From Cryomorphaceae bacterium (GTDB lineage Bacteria; Bacteroidota; Bacteroidia; Flavobacteriales; Schleiferiaceae): 64,000 nucleotides of DNA. Both the position numbers and the translations under genes were made by a program. A model generated the notes under the pieces. The model was not told where the DNA came from, made no database searches, and was given only the letters and a program-made list of their open reading frames with translations. The stretch spans positions 56,869 to 120,868 of the forward strand of contig WTIZ01000054.1 in assembly GCA_011525035.1 (NCBI GenBank), read 5' to 3'. This document shows, in pieces, positions 8,679-53,717 of this stretch (the stretch's first letter is position 1; the number at the start of each line of letters is the position of its first letter).

Positions 8679-10166
8679 ATGTCAAGAACCGTATCAAAAA
8701 TCCTCGTTGCGAACAGAGGAGAAATAGCCCTTAGAATTATGAGAAGTGCCCGCGAAATGGGCATTCGAACTGTCGCAGTTTATTCTGAGGCGGACCGCAG
8801 AGCGCCACACGTCCTATTCGCGGACGAGGCAGTTTTCATTGGTCCAGCGCCTTCTGCCGAAAGTTACCTCAAGGGCGACCGAATAATTAGTGCCGCACAA
8901 AACCTAGGTGTAGATGCCATACATCCTGGCTATGGATTCCTGAGTGAAAACGCTGCTTTTGCTGAAGCGGTAGAACAGGCAGGGATGATATTCGTCGGAC
9001 CGCGTCCGCACGCCATTCGCATCATGGGCGACAAACTCAGTGCGAAAGCTGCCGTAGCAGATTTTGACGTACCTCTCGTACCCGGTTCCGATGGGGAGGT
9101 TACGGATGTAGACCGCGCGAAAGAATTGGCCTCAGAGATAGGTTTTCCTATTATGATCAAAGCCAGTGCTGGCGGTGGTGGGAAAGGGATGCGTATTGTA
9201 CACAACCCTGAGGAGTTCGATGCTCAAATGGAGCGCGCGGTTAGTGAAGCAACCAACAGCTTTGGAAACGGAGCGGTGTTTGTCGAGAAATACATAGAAG
9301 ATCCAAGGCATATTGAGATTCAGATTTTAGCGGATGAACACGGTAACGTGGTACACCTTTTTGAACGAGAATGCTCCATCCAACGTCGCCATCAGAAGGT
9401 TATCGAGGAAGCGCCGAGCGTAGTACTTACAGAGTCCCTTCGTGAAGCCATGGGTCAAGCGGCTGTAAATGTGGCCAAGGCTTGTGATTATCGCGGTGCA
9501 GGTACGGTGGAATTTATCTTTGAACCTGGTGGAAAGTTTTACTTTCTAGAAATGAATACACGCTTGCAAGTAGAGCATCCGGTTACTGAGCAAATCACGG
9601 GGATTGATTTGGTCAAACAACAGCTACGTATAGCAGAGGGTCACCCCTTAGCATTCGATCAAAAATCCTTGACCATTCAAGGTCACGCCATTGAAGTTCG
9701 TGTATATGCTGAAAATGCTGCCGAGAACTTTATGCCCGCAACAGGAAAGCTGCATGAATACAAGAGGCCGCAAGGACTAGGTGTTCGAGTAGACGACGGT
9801 CTAGAGCAAGGTATGGAGGTGAGTATCTATTACGATCCAATGATTGCTAAGCTGATCACCTTTGGTGCAGATAGGACAGAGGCTATTGCACGAATGAAGC
9901 GTGCCATTTCAGAATACCGCATCGCTGGGGTACAAACCACGCTGGACTTTGCAGATTTTGTGATGAACCATGAAGCTTTTGTAGGTGGCGAATTCAGTAC
10001 TCATTTTGTAGAGAAGTACTTTTCTCCAAACGCATTGCAAAGCGAGGATGCGGAACTCGAAGCTGTGGGAGCCGCCGCAGTGGCAAACCTTTTGCAAGGA
10101 GCTAAAACAAATCAATCTGTAGTTTCACATGGTAAAAGCTCTCGTTGGAAGACGAATAGGTCCTAG
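8679..10166 (+). CDS. Biotin carboxylase subunit of an acyl-CoA carboxylase (AccC/PccA-like)
   Basis: A 495-residue enzyme from MSRTVSKILVANRGEIALRI. It would carboxylate biotin on a carrier protein with ATP and bicarbonate, for acetyl- or propionyl-CoA carboxylation in the cytoplasm. Domain order is the N-terminal fold (ILVANRGEIA), the ATP-grasp domain with the glycine-rich loop KASAGGGGKGMRIV, catalytic motifs ECSIQRRHQKVIEEAPS and FLEMNTRLQVEHPVTE, and the biotin-carboxylase C domain. An upstream in-frame ATG at 8574 lies inside the previous gene and was rejected. No biotin carrier or carboxyltransferase gene adjoins it, so it must pair with subunits encoded elsewhere. Its last 38 nt overlap the DUF4294 gene; the basic tail (SRWKTNRS) resembles that of Bacteroidota relatives, so I read this as a true end. 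Confidence 0.88.
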   Translation: MSRTVSKILVANRGEIALRIMRSAREMGIRTVAVYSEADRRAPHVLFADEAVFIGPAPSAESYLKGDRIISAAQNLGVDAIHPGYGFLSENAAFAEAVEQAGMIFVGPRPHAIRIMGDKLSAKAAVADFDVPLVPGSDGEVTDVDRAKELASEIGFPIMIKASAGGGGKGMRIVHNPEEFDAQMERAVSEATNSFGNGAVFVEKYIEDPRHIEIQILADEHGNVVHLFERECSIQRRHQKVIEEAPSVVLTESLREAMGQAAVNVAKACDYRGAGTVEFIFEPGGKFYFLEMNTRLQVEHPVTEQITGIDLVKQQLRIAEGHPLAFDQKSLTIQGHAIEVRVYAENAAENFMPATGKLHEYKRPQGLGVRVDDGLEQGMEVSIYYDPMIAKLITFGADRTEAIARMKRAISEYRIAGVQTTLDFADFVMNHEAFVGGEFSTHFVEKYFSPNALQSEDAELEAVGAAAVANLLQGAKTNQSVVSHGKSSRWKTNRS

Positions 10167-15176: not shown

Positions 15177-16457
15177 CTACGTCCACGTCTCTACAAACTC
15201 TCCTTTCGGGTCGTAACGCTCGGCTTGCATCTTGGTGTTAAACTTTCTGAATGGTCTCGGATCATTGCCTCTACCGGCATTATAGAGCCAATTCCCATAA
15301 TTCGATGCCGGGTCGTAGTCAATCAAATGCTTTTCAAAAAAAGCAGCACCAGCGCGCCAGTCTATTCCCATGTCGTGCACCAAATAGGATGCTACATTTT
15401 GTCTTCCACGATTGCTCATGAAACCTGTTGCTACGAGTTCTTTCATATTGGCATCCACCAGCGGATCACCTGTATTTCCTGTGGTCCATTTTTCAAAAGC
15501 TCTTGCATTAAAACCTTGCTTCAAAGGCTTTTCTGGCTGCAATCCGTGTGCAGTAAATAAATCCTTACCGTGTTTAAGCGCAATCCACTGGAAGTATTCG
15601 CGCCATAAAAGCTCAAAAAACAGCCAATAAGTACTCTCGTTAGATTCAACCTCTTCCTCAAATCTTTTCAATTCGTCGTAAATCTGTCTAGCACTAATGC
15701 AGCCCAGGGCGAGAAATGCCGAAAACTTCGAACTATAATTACGACCGACCATCCCATTACGGGTCTGCTTGTAAACCAGGACATGTTCGCTTTCCCAGAG
15801 GTAAAAGTCTAATTGTTCCCAAGCAGCCGAGGTACCACCAGCGAAGGGTACTGCGCTGCGTTCATCTTGTGCTACCTCCCACAAGTGGATACCGTCCGAA
15901 CTCAAATCAAAATCAAAGGGGTCGAAGGAGGAAATTTCTGGCTCTTCAATAGGCGGTTGCACGCGAGAGCGTTTTTCGACCTTACCTCTAAATCTCGAGA
16001 ACACTTCAGGAATTTCATTCACACTAAAGGGCAAATCACGCTCCAAGTATAAGGTTCGCTCCGTCATTAAATGAACCGACACTCCTTGTTCTTTGGCTTT
16101 TTCAGTCAATTTGCGCTCGACTTGTCTTTCATTGTAGGCGAACTCTTTTGGCGCATAAATGGCTGTTGCTCCCGTTTTTGTGGCCAATTCAAGCAGCCCT
16201 TTTACCGGGTCAACACCACGAAGCACGAGCAACTCGCTTGAGTCGTTTTCCAAAGCACTGTTCAGGTCAGCGAGGCTTTCCATTAAAAAACGCTTCCTAT
16301 GGTCGCCTTTGCCTTCTTCTACCCATTTAGTATTGTGCCACGACTCTTCATCAAAATACACAGGTATGACGGTATCAAAGCGAGAGTAGGCTTCGGCTAC
16401 AGGGGTATTGTCTCCTAGTCGTAAGTTGTTTCTAAACCAGAGAATACAGGTACTCAT
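15177..16457 (-). CDS. DASH-type cryptochrome/photolyase
   Basis: A 426-residue flavoprotein of the photolyase superfamily. N-terminal alpha/beta antenna-binding domain (ILWFRNNLRLGDNTP), and a C-terminal FAD-binding helical domain with ELLWREYFQWIALKHG, the block ANMKELVATGFMSNRGRQNVASYLVHD, and YDPASNYGNWLYNAGRGNDPR. The last blocks are hallmarks of cry-DASH. Members repair cyclobutane dimers in single-stranded or looped DNA under blue light and may have signalling roles. The start codon overlaps the stop of the upstream FeS photolyase gene by 1 nt (TAATG), indicating translational coupling. At 426 residues it is close to the usual bacterial length, without a long C-terminal extension. Confidence 0.9.
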   Translation of the reverse strand: MSTCILWFRNNLRLGDNTPVAEAYSRFDTVIPVYFDEESWHNTKWVEEGKGDHRKRFLMESLADLNSALENDSSELLVLRGVDPVKGLLELATKTGATAIYAPKEFAYNERQVERKLTEKAKEQGVSVHLMTERTLYLERDLPFSVNEIPEVFSRFRGKVEKRSRVQPPIEEPEISSFDPFDFDLSSDGIHLWEVAQDERSAVPFAGGTSAAWEQLDFYLWESEHVLVYKQTRNGMVGRNYSSKFSAFLALGCISARQIYDELKRFEEEVESNESTYWLFFELLWREYFQWIALKHGKDLFTAHGLQPEKPLKQGFNARAFEKWTTGNTGDPLVDANMKELVATGFMSNRGRQNVASYLVHDMGIDWRAGAAFFEKHLIDYDPASNYGNWLYNAGRGNDPRPFRKFNTKMQAERYDPKGEFVETWT

Positions 16458-17986
16458 TACAGTGCTTCTAAGTTTTCTAAAACATAATTTGCTCGAGCTC
16501 TTATGGCTGCCTTGTTTTCTAAGGACATCTTATCGAACGTGCGATACACCATACCCAGCCTAAAGTTGTTGCCAAGCAGGTCTCTATGTCGTTCAAAGAA
16601 GTTCCAATAGAGCGAGTTAAAAGGACAACTATCAGAATCGGTTTTTGTTTTCTCGTTGTAGAAACAATTCTGGCAATAGTCGCCCATTTTCTTCATGTAA
16701 TTCGCGGATGCGACATAAGGTTTGGTTGCGATCCAGCCACCGTCCGCATATTGACTCATCCCGCGGGTGTTGGTAATTTCAACCCATTCGAAGGCATCAA
16801 TGTAAATGCCCAGGTACCATAAATCCACTTCATCGGGATCTATGCCAGCGAGCAGCATAAAGTTGCCGGTAACCATAAGTCGCTGAATATGATGTGCATA
16901 GGCATGGTCGAGGCTTTGGCCAATGGAGTGCGATAGGCACTTCATCTTCGTATTACCGTTCCAAAACCACTCGGGCAGAGGCGTTTTGTGATTGAAGTAA
17001 TTTTCGTTGCCAAAATCGGGCATGCGCTCCCAATAGACGCCTCTCATGAACTCTCTCCATCCCAAAATCTGACGGATGAAACCTTCGGCCGCATTCAATG
17101 GAATATGCTCATTAGATCTGTAATAGGCCTCTGCACGCTGGCAAATGGTCAATGGGTCTATGAGCTTGACGTTTAGGGCAAATGATATTCTGCTATGGTA
17201 CAGCGCCCAATCACTCACGGTCATTGCATCTTGAAAATCACCAAAGAATTGGAAACAATGTTCAAGCCACTGATCGAATATGGCAAGTGCCTGCTCGGTA
17301 GAAGTTGGCCAATAATAATGTTTGGGATCCTTAAGGTTCCCAATGGTCGGCAACTCCGCCTTCAATACATCGGTATATACTTCTTCCACATTTGTGGACG
17401 GCAAGTAGGGGGGAGGAATCAAATGGTTTTTTGGAAGTTTCTTTCGGTTTTGAGCATCGTAGTTCCATTTGCCCCCATGTGGCGCATTTCCTTCCATTAG
17501 AATACCCGTGCGCTTCCTGAGTTTGCGGTAAAAGGTTTCCATAAGGAAGCTCTTTTTTCCCTTGAAAGTCGCAGTGAATTCCTCTTTTGTGGATATGAAA
17601 TGCTCGCTGGATACAAAGGAGATAGGATGGCCTTTAGTGGCCAATTCTTCAAGGTTTTGTTGCACTCTTATCTCATCCGGCTGCATAAATTGCAACGCTG
17701 TAGCCTGTAGTTTATCACTAATACTGTGTAAGATTTCAGCCAGCTCTACTTGCTCTGAATCGAGTATCCGATGGTAATACACCTCGTGACCCTGCTCTTT
17801 GAGCTTGGCGGCAAAATTCCGCATGGCTTGTAGTATCCCAACCACCTTTTGGATGTGATGGGGCGCATATGAACCTTCACCACGACATTCTATGAATACA
17901 TAGGTAATGGAGGCGTCGATTTGTTGAAACCAGGAATGTGATGGATTAAGCTGATCGCCTAGAACTAATCGGAGGGTACGTGACAT
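16457..17986 (-). CDS. Iron-sulfur (6-4) photolyase (FeS-BCP, PhrB-like)
   Basis: A 509-residue member of the DPRP/FeS-BCP branch of cryptochromes and photolyases. It starts with MSRTLRLVLGDQLNPSHSWF and carries the FAD-site block AEGFIRQILGWREFMRGVYW. Four cysteines fit the 4Fe-4S site: C350 (MKCLSHS), C438 and C441 (DYCQNC), and C454 (SCPF). These numbers coincide with the cluster cysteines of Agrobacterium PhrB as I remember them. The expected role is light-driven repair of (6-4) photoproducts with FAD and a lumazine-type antenna. First gene of a leftward group with cry-DASH (1-nt overlap) and a PLP decarboxylase. Confidence 0.9.
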   Translation of the reverse strand: MSRTLRLVLGDQLNPSHSWFQQIDASITYVFIECRGEGSYAPHHIQKVVGILQAMRNFAAKLKEQGHEVYYHRILDSEQVELAEILHSISDKLQATALQFMQPDEIRVQQNLEELATKGHPISFVSSEHFISTKEEFTATFKGKKSFLMETFYRKLRKRTGILMEGNAPHGGKWNYDAQNRKKLPKNHLIPPPYLPSTNVEEVYTDVLKAELPTIGNLKDPKHYYWPTSTEQALAIFDQWLEHCFQFFGDFQDAMTVSDWALYHSRISFALNVKLIDPLTICQRAEAYYRSNEHIPLNAAEGFIRQILGWREFMRGVYWERMPDFGNENYFNHKTPLPEWFWNGNTKMKCLSHSIGQSLDHAYAHHIQRLMVTGNFMLLAGIDPDEVDLWYLGIYIDAFEWVEITNTRGMSQYADGGWIATKPYVASANYMKKMGDYCQNCFYNEKTKTDSDSCPFNSLYWNFFERHRDLLGNNFRLGMVYRTFDKMSLENKAAIRARANYVLENLEAL

Positions 17987-37010: not shown

Positions 37011-38162
37011 ATGAGAATCACCATGAGTGATGAGCGCTTAGAAACGCTCGAATTAATCCGCCAATCCGCCAAAGATTTCGCAGAATCGAAAATTCGCCCA
37101 CATGTAATGGAGTGGGATGAAAGCCAACACTTTCCGGTAGACGTTTTTAAAGAACTGGGTCAACTTGGTTTCATGGGAATCCTAGTGCCAGAAGAATATG
37201 GTGGCGCAGGGATGGGTTACCAAGAATACATTACCGTCATTGACGAAATTGCACAAGTCTGCGGTTCTATTGGTCTTTCGGTAGCAGCCCACAACAGCCT
37301 CTGCACCGGACATATTTTACAATTTGGTACTGAAGCTCAGAAAGCCAAATGGCTCCCAAAATTGGCCACTGCAGAGTGGATTGGTGCTTGGGGTCTGACA
37401 GAAACCGGTACAGGTTCTGATGCTGGCGGTATGGATACAACAGCTATCCTTGATGGCGATCACTATGTGCTAAATGGTTCAAAAAACTGGATTACGCACG
37501 CGATTTCATCGAGTATTGCGGTGGTCATTGCAAGAACAGGAGAGAAAGGCGATTCCCACGGTATGACAGCCTTTGTCGTAGAAAAAGGAACACCTGGATT
37601 TACCGCTGGCCAGAAAGAAAATAAACTAGGCATGCGTGCCTCAGAAACGGCATGTCTCTTCTTTGACAATTGCCGCGTGCCCAAAGAAAACGTCCTCGGT
37701 GAAGTGGGCGAAGGCTTCATTCAAGCCATGAAAATCCTGGACGGCGGCAGAATCTCAATTGCCGCACTCTCCGTGGGTATCGCCCGTGGAGCGATGAATG
37801 CAGCTATTCAATATGCTGATGAGCGCCAGCAGTTTGGCCGAAAAATTCGCGCTTTTCAGGGGGTTAGTTTCAAGCTCGCAGAAATGTCGACCAAGGTATA
37901 TGGTGCTGAGTTGATGACGCGCCATGCCGGCGCGCTCAAGGAAGAGGGCAAGCCAATGACCCAAGAAAGTGCGATGTGTAAGTTGTACGCTTCAGAAATA
38001 TCTACCGAAGTGGCTAATGAGGCCGTTCAAGTCTTTGGTGGTTATGGTTACACGAAGGATTATCCGGTAGAGAAATTCTACCGTGATTGTAAGCTTTGTA
38101 CCATCGGTGAGGGCACCTCGGAAATACAGAAAGTTGTGATTTCCAGAAACTTATATCGTTAG
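37011..38162 (+). CDS. Acyl-CoA dehydrogenase
   Basis: A 383-residue FAD enzyme of fatty-acid or branched-chain acyl-CoA oxidation. Domain order is normal: helical N-terminal domain, beta domain with [17 protein letters not shown] and KNWITHA, and C-terminal helical domain with [25 protein letters not shown]. The catalytic-base region has [39 protein letters not shown], with Glu in IGEGTSE. The chain may start at 37011 or at the second ATG (37023, MSDERLE). Its stop codon overlaps the convergent DUF2256 gene by 4 nt. Confidence 0.92.
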
Positions 38163-38299
38163 GACTTGGGTCGATTTGAGTTGCAGCGCTTGCTGCAATA
38201 TTTGACATTTTCCCAATTCCTTTCCCATTTTTTGCGCCATGTGAAGGGTCTTCCGCACGTGGCGCAAACTTTTTCGGGTAAATGAGGTTTTTTGTGCAT
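38159..38299 (-). CDS. DUF2256 zinc-ribbon small protein (46 residues)
   Basis: A complete small frame: ATG at 38297-38299 (complement), stop TAA at 38159-38161. The product starts [19 protein letters not shown], continues [19 protein letters not shown], and ends NSNRPKS. This is a full-length match to DUF2256, with the conserved CxxCGRPFxWRKKWxxxW...VKYCSxRC, four cysteines fit to bind one zinc. The function is unknown; I recall the family as a frequent neighbour of photolyase and cryptochrome genes. It overlaps the acyl-CoA dehydrogenase stop by 4 nt and is divergent from TIGR03643 with 23 nt between the starts. Easily missed because of its size. Confidence 0.88.
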
Positions 38300-38322
38300 A
38301 GACTTTGAAAACAACCCGGCAG

Positions 38323-38616
38323 ATGAAAGGTTCCAAAATAGCGAAGAATTTTACCGAGCGAGAGATTGATCGCATCGTGGAAATGGCTTGGGAGGATCGT
38401 ACGCCTTTCGATGCCATTAAAGACCAGTTCGGCATATCTGAAGCCGAAACTATAGCGCTGATGCGCCATCAAATGAAGGCCAGTTCTTGGCGTATGTGGC
38501 GTGCTCGAGTGCAGGGCAGGAGCACCAAGCATCGCGCGCGAAGAGGCTTTGAAGTCGGTCGCCACAAGTGTTCTCGTCAGCGTCATATTTCACACAACAA
38601 AATCTCGAAGCGTTAA
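38323..38616 (+). CDS. TIGR03643 family small protein
   Basis: A 97-residue basic protein from the ATG at 38323 (an upstream TTG at 38305 is less likely). The core [33 protein letters not shown] and [20 protein letters not shown] defines TIGR03643. The basic C-terminus ([18 protein letters not shown]) is the usual extended end of the family as I know it. The N-terminal part looks like a helix-turn-helix-like helical unit, so nucleic-acid binding is possible but unproven. It is divergent from the DUF2256 gene; the pair shares a 23-nt intergenic region. The function is unknown. Confidence 0.85.
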
Positions 38617-50270: not shown

Positions 50271-50949
50271 GCAACGTATTTTACTTGTTGAAGACGACAC
50301 GAATTTTGGAAACCTACTTCGTGATACATTGATGTTTAACGATTTTGAGGTTGACCTAGAACGCGACGGTGTACAAGGGTTAAGAGCTTACAAACAAGGA
50401 GAGTATGACCTGTGTATCTTCGACATCATGATGCCTAAAAAAGACGGTTTAACCCTTGCTACCGAAGTGAAGGCAATCGACAATGGCCAGCCGCTTATCT
50501 TCTTAACAGCAAAAGGTCAAAAGGAAGATATCATTGCAGGCTACAGTGCAGGGGCTGATGATTACTTGGTTAAACCGTTTGACACAGACGTCTTGCTTTA
50601 TAAAATTCAGGCAATCATTGGTCGTAATCTTGCAGATATAGAGGAGGAGCCGGATGAAATCCAAATAGGAAAGTTGACATTCAAACCAAAGATCCGTCAG
50701 CTAATAGTAGGGGATTCAATCACGAAACTTAGTCCAAAAGAGTGCGATTTGCTAAAACTCTTAGCGGCTCATAAAAATCAACTGCTACCAAGATCGAAGG
50801 CCTTGCTCAAGATTTGGAAGGAAGACAACTACTTCACAGGGCGCTCGATGGATGTTTACGTCGCGAAACTTCGTAAATACTTGAAGGTGGACGAGAGTCT
50901 TCGTATTGAAAATGTACACGGCGAAGGATTCCGATTGGTACAAGATTAA
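50263..50949 (+). CDS. OmpR-family response regulator
   Basis: A 228-residue regulator. The receiver domain (1-120) has the acidic pair [10 protein letters not shown], phospho-acceptor Asp54 ([12 protein letters not shown]), the switch threonine in IFLTAKG, and Lys in DDYLVKPFD. The C-terminal winged-helix domain (about 135-228) has [23 protein letters not shown] and [13 protein letters not shown]...NVHGEGFRL. It is translated with the upstream kinase (8-nt overlap). Its regulon is unknown. The 3' end overlaps the convergent cryptochrome gene by 4 nt. Confidence 0.92.
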
Positions 50950-52403
50950 GATTTCCGAGGTCCAGGATTCACATGCTTGTTCAGGATTCGACGTGCTTCC
51001 TTTTTAGTGCTTTTTTCTTTTCTCTTCGCATAGAGCGTATCGCTCGCTCTTTTCCGAGCTTTTCCTAAATCTATCACTGGTTCTAAGGGGTATGAACCCG
51101 TATTGTAGCCTTGCATGGTTAGTTCCATTGGTGGAATCTTCCAAGGTTCATGGATGTATGGAGCCGGTATTTGAAATAGCTCGGGTACCCATTGTTTTAT
51201 GAAGGCTCCCTTGGGGTCGTGGTCTTGACTTTGCTTCACTGGATTGTAGATTCTAATGGTATTTACACCGGTATATCCGCTCTGCATTTGAAATTGGGCA
51301 TAATGAATACCAGGCTCGAAATCCGTAAATAATGATGCTAGGTAGTCTGCACCTGGCTTCCAAGGTTGCCATAGGTATTGGCTGTAAAAACTCACTACCA
51401 TGGCACGCATTCTAAAATTCAGATATCCTGTGGCGGTAAGACATCGCATACATGCGTCAACCAGCGGTACTCCTGTTTTCCCTTCTTTCCAAGCGGTAAA
51501 TAGTTTTGGATCAAACACCTTACTCTCATCGATGGCTGTGTAGGCTCTGTTAATGGGTAGGAATTCGTATTCCCATTCGCTTTCAAACTTTTGAATAAAG
51601 TGTGCTTGCCATCTCAATCGATCCGCAAATGCACGGATATTGCGCTTGGAACCAGGGATATCTGTTACTTCCATGATCTGGACCAATTGTCGCACACTGA
51701 CGTTTCCCCAGGCAAGATGTGGTGATATTCGGCTGCACCCTTTTCGAGATTCTTGGGGTTTGGAAATGCTGTATGCGTATCGAGAAATCCGTTTTGTTAA
51801 AAAGCTTCTGATAATGCTGTGTGCACGACGTTCACCTCCGCGCTGAAAAAACGGGTGTTCCTCGAAGACGGTAGGCATTAACTCGGCAAAGTTGGGCGCG
51901 GCTAATGCACGCTCGCTAATCTGTTTTAAATCAATATTAATCAGGGGTTGCGCGGCATCATGGTGCCATTTTTTGACCCAGTCTCTCCGGTTTCTTAGGC
52001 CACGTCGAACGCCATTGGCATCAGATTCTAGCCATGGTATCCCATGTGATTTAAAGAGTTTATGGATGGCAATATCACGATCAAAAGTATGTTTAATACC
52101 AGTTTCCTTGTGGCTAAAGACACGAACAATATCATAGTTAGCTATGAGCTTCTTGAAAAAATCTAGAGCTTCAGTACGGATGAAATGAACGGTGCCATTG
52201 CCAGCTTGCTGATTAAGATCTTCAATAGAGTCCGCAATAAATCTCAGGTGCCTTTCGTCGTATTGTTGGAGCTCAAACAGCGAAGGTTCGTACAAGGCAA
52301 AATACAGCGTTGGAAGATTACCTTGAATACTTTCATAAACGGGCTTATTATCAAACCACCGCAGATCGCGCTTGAACCAAACAAGTTGAATTTTTTGACG
52401 CAT
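50946..52403 (-). CDS. Cryptochrome/photolyase family flavoprotein (third paralogue)
   Basis: A 485-residue member of the photolyase superfamily, distinct from the two paralogues near 16 kb. The alpha/beta domain starts [35 protein letters not shown] and the FAD domain blocks [49 protein letters not shown] and [26 protein letters not shown] define a subgroup I know mostly from marine bacteria, usually annotated FAD-binding or deoxyribodipyrimidine photolyase. The repaired lesion or signalling role is undetermined. A basic C-terminal tail may contact DNA. Third gene of an SDR-flavin reductase-cryptochrome operon, with a 1-nt overlap (TGATG). Confidence 0.82.
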
Positions 52404-53029
52404 CAGAATCCGTATTTAGCGGCATTCGGGTAGGGGAGCTTTATGGCTGTTTCTGTGGTGGTATATTGTCGTAAACCTATAGCGAGAGTTGGTGGTGTAT
52501 CAAAAGAAACCTGTCCTTCTTCATCGACTTTCAATGCTACGCCTGTCGTGATACTTTTAATTTGACCTACGGTATAAACGCAGCCGTTATTGAGCGTAAA
52601 GCGTTCTACAAATTCAAGTGATATAGCATATAGGTAGTCCTTTGGTAGAGGATGTGGACAGCCTTCAACGTGGCATGTAGATGCTTCCAGCACATCGAGC
52701 TCAAAAGTGCCTTCAGGTGCATTCATGCTCACTTCATGAACTAGGTTTACCTGATTGAAGGGCATACAAACCAGAGTCAGTGGGCTGCCGTTCAAGAAAT
52801 TTTGAAGTGTATGACGCTTGCCGTTATCCGGTCGAAACAAGATGCTCATCTGCGCAGGATGGGCACCTACGTGTGTTACGTTAGTTAACGTAGAGGCATT
52901 TAAACGTCCATGGCTATCGGCAGTAATAGCGATAAAGGCCGTTCGGACTCCAGACAAACTATTGATAAGCGTGGTGCGTGCTTGACGATCCATGCTATTC
53001 AGGGAAGTGCTGTCTAAGAGGATTGACAT
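52403..53029 (-). CDS. Flavin reductase-like (FMN-binding split barrel) protein
   Basis: A 208-residue soluble protein of the flavin reductase-like domain family. [38 protein letters not shown] matches the FMN-contact region (SxR and TxxN-type motifs in looser form), and the [21 protein letters not shown] part is the preceding strand pair. Expected to bind FMN or FAD and reduce it with NAD(P)H. Its setting between an SDR gene (1-nt gap) and a cryptochrome gene (1-nt overlap) suggests it serves reduced flavin to the light enzyme; that is inference. Confidence 0.75.
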
Positions 53030-53030
53030 T

Positions 53031-53717
53031 TTAAAGTACGCTTTGGCCGCCGTCGATGTGTATGATTTGCCCGGTCATCCAAGAGCTCTTATCGCTCAAC
53101 AAAAAGGCGGTCATCTCCGCAATATCATTGGCCTCTCCAACACGTTTCATTGGATTGTTATTGCCCATGGCTTCTTTCTTCTCGGGAGTACTCAATAATT
53201 TACCGGCCAATGGGGTGTCGGTCAGTGAAGGGGCGATACAATTTATTCTCGCTTTTGGTGCCCATTCACTTGCAATAGCTCTGGTCAAGCCTTCGATGGC
53301 ACCTTTAGAAGCACTGACTGTGGCATGAAAAGGCATTCCCCTTTGAACAGCAACCGTAGAGTAGAGTACCACTGAAGGGATGCTGTTTGCATTGAAGTTT
53401 TTATAAGCAGCTTGTAGCGCTTTAATAGCACCCATAACGTGCAGCTGGAAATCAGCTTCAAATACCTCGGTTTTGAGGCCACGGAAGGGTTTGAGGTTGA
53501 TGGAGCCTACACTGTACACAAGACCGTCAATGTCTTCTGGCATTTGATCTTCCCAAGAATCCTCAAGGACATCAAATTCCTCCCATTCTATGGTATGTGC
53601 AGGCCCTTCATAAGGTGTTCTGCTGAATACTGTGACTTGGTGACCTTCTGCGGCGAGCAGTTCTGCGGTTTCTTTTCCAATGCCTTTGCTTCCGCCAACG
53701 ATTACGTATTTCTTCAT
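53031..53717 (-). CDS. SDR-family protein lacking the catalytic tyrosine
   Basis: A 228-residue Rossmann protein of the classical SDR family. The nucleotide-binding motif VGGSKGIGKETA (residues 8-19), DGLVYSVGSINLKP at the NxxG position, Ser120 (LYSTVAVQRG), Lys138 in SASKGAIEGL, and the C-terminal DGGQ are all present. But the YxxxK tyrosine is replaced by valine (Val134 in HATVSASKG), so ordinary oxidoreductase chemistry is unlikely. First gene of the SDR-flavin reductase-cryptochrome operon. It may be a nucleotide-binding sensor or structural partner. Nothing suggests a frameshift: the fold is intact to the end. Confidence 0.85.
   Translation of the reverse strand: MKKYVIVGGSKGIGKETAELLAAEGHQVTVFSRTPYEGPAHTIEWEEFDVLEDSWEDQMPEDIDGLVYSVGSINLKPFRGLKTEVFEADFQLHVMGAIKALQAAYKNFNANSIPSVVLYSTVAVQRGMPFHATVSASKGAIEGLTRAIASEWAPKARINCIAPSLTDTPLAGKLLSTPEKKEAMGNNNPMKRVGEANDIAEMTAFLLSDKSSWMTGQIIHIDGGQSVL

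Follow-up and report, generated by a model that had tools for sequence, protein, structure and literature searches.

Photolyases are, in the textbook view, stand-alone enzymes. DPRP is the family of Fe-S bacterial (6-4) photolyases, and the DNA gyrase inhibitor YacG is DUF329. Members of the DPRP family have been described (PMC9178010, PMC3204975). Regulons controlled by LitR/CarH and ChrR/sigmaE, such as the light regulon of Vibrio cholerae (PMC5241685), contain photolyases that are induced by blue light via a MerR-type regulator, and their content of CFA-synthase and MerR-phr genes is similar to that of loci described below; no 'DUF' name occurs in the main text of that paper. The protein families DUF2256 and DUF329 have both been placed in the TRASH clan (PMC4047054), and a DUF2805-zf-NADH-PPase-NUDIX architecture has been listed (PMC6856373). 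A sequence-only reading of the DNA studied here had called DUF2256 and TIGR03643 functionally uncharacterised, and the literature agrees with it: both families are frequent and strongly conserved, and our search found no functional or other experimental study of DUF2256, TIGR03643 or DUF2805.

The divergent gene pair and its surroundings

The window, which is the whole stretch of 64,000 nucleotides that was analysed, carries the following genes of interest.

15177-16457, minus strand: CRY-DASH (TIGR02765, 490.8 bits, cut-off 317); overlaps the DPRP stop
16457-17986, minus strand: DPRP, Fe-S (6-4)-type photolyase/CryPro family (PF04244, E 2e-67)
37011-38162, plus strand: acyl-CoA dehydrogenase (ACAD), with Pfam ACAD domains; syntenic in close relatives only
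38159-38299, minus strand: DUF2256 gene (PF10013), 46 amino acids, four-Cys (CxxC...CxxxC) zinc-finger protein of the TRASH/FCS type
38300-38322: gap of 23 nt between the divergent start codons
38323-38616, plus strand: DUF2805/TIGR03643 gene, 97 amino acids, basic, predicted all-helical and HTH-like; conserved C-terminal tail RQRxISxNKISKR
50946-52403, minus strand: 'cryX', cryptochrome/photolyase-like protein of 485 amino acids (PF03441 over 200 of 203 positions)
52403-53029, minus strand: flavin-reductase-like protein (PF01613, E 1e-7), a recurrent photolyase-cluster member
53031-53717, minus strand: SDR oxidoreductase (PF13561, E 2e-41), also a recurrent member of photolyase clusters

The minus-strand frame had been read as a complete DUF2256 pattern of 46 residues, and a profile search bears this out with a significant match to positions 1-39 of the 40-position PF10013 model (E 2.7e-22, 79.1 bits, cut-off 25 bits). 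The protein has the CxxC and CxxxC cysteines together with FxWRxKW that mark the family. Thirteen residues are invariant in 46 DUF2256 homologues, including all four cysteines (C12, C15, C35 and C39) and the WR-KW motif, with F19, W21, R22, K24 and W25 among them; zinc binding is predicted from the cysteines and the clan. The partner gene was correctly named TIGR03643, which is the same family as PF10985/DUF2805, and it matches both models over their full length, with E 5e-34 and 116.3 bits for TIGR03643 (NCBIfam cut-off 66.55) and E 9.4e-35 and 119.2 bits for PF10985 (Pfam cut-off 22.5). Among 31 DUF2805 homologues 21 columns are invariant, and these include E20, M21, W23-T27, F29, Q35, F36, S55, W59, R60, R62, K69 and H70. 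Each gene is present as a single copy in the window's own assembly (2.0 Mb, 93% complete).

The DUF2256 frame is a selected gene under purifying selection, as follows from the codon changes between the window and the two closest relatives found, the syntenic loci L101 and L102: synonymous differences number 12 and 17 and nonsynonymous ones 10 in either relative, with dN of about 0.15-0.16 and dS of about 3.1 or saturated. Most of the amino acid changes are in the last seven residues. Both relatives keep the order of ACAD and DUF2256/DUF2805, with a gap of 22 nt between the divergent genes. DUF2805 starts with TTG in these two loci (position 10001) and with ATG in the window.

The AlphaFold model of DUF2256 has a mean pLDDT of 82. 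Foldseek gave YacG first (probability 0.82, E 0.39) and an FCS zinc finger next, both weak, and the fold matches of the DUF2256 and DUF2805 models fall short of significance (best E 0.39 and 0.67, respectively). Sequence searches of the PDB gave no credible relative of either protein; a match of DUF2256 to PRDM9 (2e-5) was dismissed as a short Cys-rich match. A search of PHROGs with DUF2256 returned only weak HNH-type zinc matches.

The spacing reported earlier, 23 nt between the starts and a 4-nt overlap of DUF2256 with the ACAD stop (38159-38162), is exact. The nearest photolyase-family genes, cryX at 12.3 kb and DPRP at 20.2 kb, are on the same contig and do not form one operon with the pair; the carotenoid genes lycopene cyclase and Caroten_synth, and BshC, are located between. 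The cryX product is not a DASH protein and stays under every NCBIfam photolyase cut-off. The DASH, DPRP and cryX genes of the window are probably the dispersed remainder of a photolyase cluster, scattered over 39 kb. Compared with members of the two families elsewhere, the sequences show nothing unusual, with full-length matches far above the curated cut-offs and typical length and motifs, and the arrangement alone (a tight divergent pair away from photolyases, overlapping the ACAD tail) is clade-local. Both genes are ordinary and well conserved for their uncharacterised families; what is unusual is how they are arranged locally.

Linkage to photolyases across genomes

Six profiles were searched in the same set of 217 Bacteroidia genomes. 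DUF2805 was found in 77 genomes, DUF2256 in 80, DPRP in 77, cryX in 45, DASH in 61 and any PF03441 protein in 141. DUF2805 and DUF2256 have 69 genomes in common (69/77 and 69/80; phi 0.81, p 2e-35), and the link persists when only photolyase-bearing genomes are counted (69/7/11/54, p 4e-20). By genus the tallies are similar, at 58 of 126 genera for each of the two. The strongest partner of DUF2256 is DPRP (71 common genomes, phi 0.85), which also shares 65 genomes with DUF2805 (phi 0.76); both small families therefore co-occur with photolyases beyond chance, at Fisher p < 1e-29 with kinship ignored, and genome relatedness inflates these p-values. A PF03441 photolyase is present in all 80 DUF2256 genomes and in 76 of the 77 DUF2805 genomes, the single exception being a fragment hit. 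Of the 45 cryX genomes, 44 have DUF2256 and 43 have DUF2805. Weighing against the inflation by relatedness are the genus tallies and the families f3, f4, f5, f12 and f14, each of which includes some members that have all three genes and others that lack all three. Among 14 named control genomes DUF2256 was found only in Caulobacter and Synechococcus, both of which have DPRP, and DUF2805 in none.

The genes are also linked in position. Where DUF2256 and DPRP share a contig (40 cases), they are at most 1 kb apart in 26. At least 54 of the 80 genomes have a DPRP, cryX or DASH gene no more than 3.5 kb from DUF2256, and at least 30 of 77 have one no more than 4.5 kb from DUF2805; these are lower bounds, since the cryX and DASH coordinates were used only in part and many of the assemblies are in fragments. 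Typical clusters have the order DUF2805-cryX-DUF2256-DPRP with SDR and flavin reductase genes, or DUF2256-DASH-DPRP-cryX-DUF2805. Rhizobium has the order DPRP-DUF2256, and in Salinivibrio the photolyase gene overlaps DUF2256 by 11 nt. The earlier statement that both families are frequent photolyase neighbours is therefore correct, and they are often found inside photolyase/cryptochrome clusters. Some plasmids of Pseudoalteromonas, Vibrio and Nostoc carry DUF2805 without an annotated photolyase nearby; because such plasmids and the phage records described below have DUF2805 without one, it cannot depend strictly on an adjacent photolyase. A protein of about 380 residues that comprises only the FAD-binding part of photolyases recurs beside DUF2805 (L159:3461-4609, L167:10347-11633, L008, L016, L019, L030) and may be the uncharacterised FAD-domain family of PMC9239080.

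The spacing of DUF2256 and DUF2805 to each other varies from touching genes to separate contigs. Matches to both on one contig were found in 38 cases; the two are at most 5 kb apart in 33 of these and at most 250 bp in 11. Of these 11 pairs four are divergent, as in the window, and the rest codirectional. On the Acinetobacter plasmid p1AsACE (L297) the two genes are convergent with a 4-nt overlap and adjoin DPRP, nudC, lipocalin, desaturase and CFA synthase genes, so that nudC is found beside the DPRP/DUF2256/TIGR03643 cluster. Since orientation and spacing differ between genomes, with divergent, codirectional and convergent forms, control of the pair from one 23-nt region, as had been suggested, is not a conserved principle. 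The suggestion that the two genes form a unit with each other holds in part: they do co-occur and are adjacent also on the Acinetobacter plasmid, but the correlation of each with photolyases is about as close as that with its partner, and both are often inside photolyase clusters, which argues against reading their distance from the photolyases here as a sign of an independent two-gene unit. Neither a missing DUF2256 match nor missing co-occurrence of the two families, which would have refuted the earlier reading, was observed. From the linkage counts and the varied arrangements we conclude that conservation applies to the photolyase cluster as a unit, the tight divergent pair being just one among several arrangements. 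The membership of DUF2256 and DUF2805 in the photolyase toolkit is well supported.

Candidate operators and light regulation

Upstream regions were compared in 80 bacterial loci (L101-L180). The inward palindrome TTGTTTA-N18-TAAACAA, allowing one mismatch in 14 positions, occurs 48 times, as compared to 1-3 times in second-order Markov sequences; any other spacing of the two half-sites from 0 to 40 gives at most 10 copies. The outward TAAACA...TGTTTA palindrome had no more copies than expected and was rejected as a general regulon signal. Often a TATCTTT-type -7 box follows the inward element downstream. It is located just upstream of DUF2256-led photolyase operons (L106, L119, L135, L153), upstream of a small gene that precedes DUF2805 (L116, L154, L157, L169, L170), upstream of SDR genes, and before folE and a PTPS gene. 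In L177 it flanks the gene of a MerR-like protein whose C-terminal half is of the B12 type and which resembles CarH/LitR in sequence, and a homologue of this protein (E 1e-50) is encoded in the window's own genome. Examples are:

L106:5500, L119:5512, L153:7037 and L177:17547: TTGTTTA-N18-TAAACAA
L310:8174 and L310:8220: TTGTTTA-N18-TAAACAA, own genome
L310:7282-14025 (G000 contig C50:65281-72024): own-genome CarH/LitR-like operon, gene names by sequence inspection

In this operon the two operators come directly after the CarH/LitR-like gene and are followed by genes for an ECF sigma factor, phytoene desaturase, phytoene synthase, IPP isomerase, PTPS, folE and a CPD-type photolyase, a composition like that of the LitR/CarH regulons. 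We regard TTGTTTA-N18-TAAACAA as a candidate light operator of Bacteroidota; a limited literature search found no description of it. Unlike genes of a LitR/CarH-type regulon, the pair in the window has no such operator, as there is no copy with up to two mismatches anywhere in the window, and inspection by eye found no promoter motif common to the light genes of the window. If the pair is under light control, this could perhaps run through the ECF sigma factor of its own genome.

A second palindrome, AAACA-N15/16-TGTTT, is found in the 60 nt that precede DUF2805 in 8 of the 15 divergent pairs compared, while as background 0.17% of all 60-nt windows from these loci contain it. It has a fixed position 32-34 nt before the DUF2805 start (L103, L104, L118, L121, L127, L137, L138, L147). 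It would suit a DUF2805 protein acting as the transcription regulator of a light or photo-oxidative regulon, which binds a palindrome in its own divergent promoter by its HTH and controls the photolyase genes. The AlphaFold model fits to the extent that residues 11-60 (pLDDT > 90) are all helical with an HTH-like pair and weak matches to LsrR, sigma region 4 and DeoR, and small HTH proteins are suited to phages. However, the putative recognition helix of 12 residues is conserved mainly in hydrophobic and acidic residues and most of the conserved polar residues are elsewhere, the second palindrome is absent from the window and its closest relatives, and a regulator of the CarH/LitR type already suits the regulon operator. 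Regulation by DUF2805 is therefore possible but rather unlikely.

Phage copies and function of the pair

DUF2805 is encoded on 79 IMG/VR contigs, about 65 of which have a short form of some 75-90 amino acids that lacks the bacterial NKISKR tail.

IMG/VR L193-L257: DUF2805 loci of large marine phages, short DUF2805, close to position 10000 in most of them

At least some carriers are beyond doubt phages, because a major head protein is encoded about 1 kb from DUF2805 in L234 and a tail-fibre-like protein adjoins it in L204. A flavodoxin-like (PF02525) reductase is encoded in 34 of the phage loci, often next to DUF2805; this Flavodoxin_2 partner was found in none of the 80 bacterial loci. Other neighbours in phages are thymidylate synthase, an Fpg/Nei-type glycosylase, an ATP-dependent ligase and a sigma factor. 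No PF03441 photolyase was found in 50 phage records with DUF2805 (11-380 kb, not necessarily complete), PF03441 being the only photolyase profile applied to them. Since all 50 lack PF03441, the use of DUF2805 needs no such gene in the same genome, and the protein either works with host enzymes or has a broader role. In genomes of cultured phages neither DUF2805 nor DUF2256 was found at E 1e-5. DUF2256 on IMG/VR contigs is probably not a phage gene; the copies are mostly near-identical, a good many are placed 8-10 kb short of the end of the sequence retrieved, and they look like host flanks of prophages.

The reading that we prefer, and to which we give about an even chance, is that DUF2256 and DUF2805/TIGR03643 are small basic nucleic-acid-binding accessories of the photolyase toolkit that help to handle UV-damaged DNA. 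In its favour we count the family membership, the repeated co-occurrence and co-location, the candidate light-type operator common to several relatives, the invariant cysteines and W/R/K residues of DUF2256, the HTH-like model of DUF2805, and the DNA-repair genes (Fpg/Nei type, ligase) near DUF2805 in phages; the 50 phage records, the plasmids that carry DUF2805 with no annotated photolyase close by, five DUF2256 genomes that have neither DPRP nor cryX nor DASH, the insignificant fold matches and the absence of the operator from the window count against it. As to the mechanism, we infer that DUF2256 would be a four-Cys zinc knuckle serving as adaptor or nucleic-acid binder with photolyases, those of the DPRP type first. 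DUF2805 would bind nucleic acid as an HTH-fold protein, not by a typical recognition helix but by its conserved basic segment (W59-R-x-R ... K69-H70) together with the basic tail; this putative binding through the basic C-terminal part is proposed because the invariant residues are mostly outside the presumed recognition helix. Together the two would let photolyases find or handle UV-damaged DNA in the light response. An extension to phages, in which DUF2805 is an accessory factor of photoreactivation or photo-oxidative stress taken over by large marine phages that steers or boosts host repair of viral DNA in sunlight, is speculative and unlikely.

For DUF2256 a role as maturation factor or metallochaperone of the [4Fe-4S] photolyase DPRP is suggested by its four cysteines and by DPRP being its best profile partner (phi 0.85) and often adjacent (26 within 1 kb). 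On the other hand, DPRP is absent from 9 of the 80 DUF2256 genomes, some of them about 100% complete (G188, G175, G058), and six DPRP genomes lack DUF2256. The gene is also found beside DASH and cryX, which are not known as Fe-S proteins, and such a role is quite improbable. Much the same holds for mere hitch-hiking, by which both genes would ride on mobile or habitat-specific islands of bacteria from sunlit waters and have no joint function: many carriers are indeed aquatic and both families are found on plasmids, but the co-occurrence extends over many of the families in the class, single members of the five named above, which otherwise have the genes, lack them together, the genes are adjacent in phyla as distant as Bacteroidota and Pseudomonadota, and one operator is common to several clusters. 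That DUF2256 acts like its clan relative YacG, of similar size, by binding DNA gyrase or another conserved enzyme and altering topology in light stress, is suggested by the four top fold matches, all gyrase-bound YacG (probability up to 0.82, TM 0.51), and by the common TRASH clan (PMC4047054), but it is highly improbable, since these matches have E values of 0.39-1.2, profile search of PDB sequences did not find YacG and so gave no significant sequence relation, and tight photolyase linkage is not a known trait of YacG.

With DUF2256 and DUF2805 as photolyase accessories, the pair is probably part of the bacterial response to sunlight damage and not a separate system. The most useful new leads are the operator TTGTTTA-N18-TAAACAA and the phage copies of DUF2805, and together with the co-occurrence table they make the label 'function unknown' directly testable. 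If the phage reading is true, the short copy may serve the repair of viral DNA by the host in sunlight. If the two proteins are indeed accessories, the view of photolyases as stand-alone enzymes would fall short for many aquatic bacteria, and partners may be overlooked when photoreactivation is assayed with purified enzyme.
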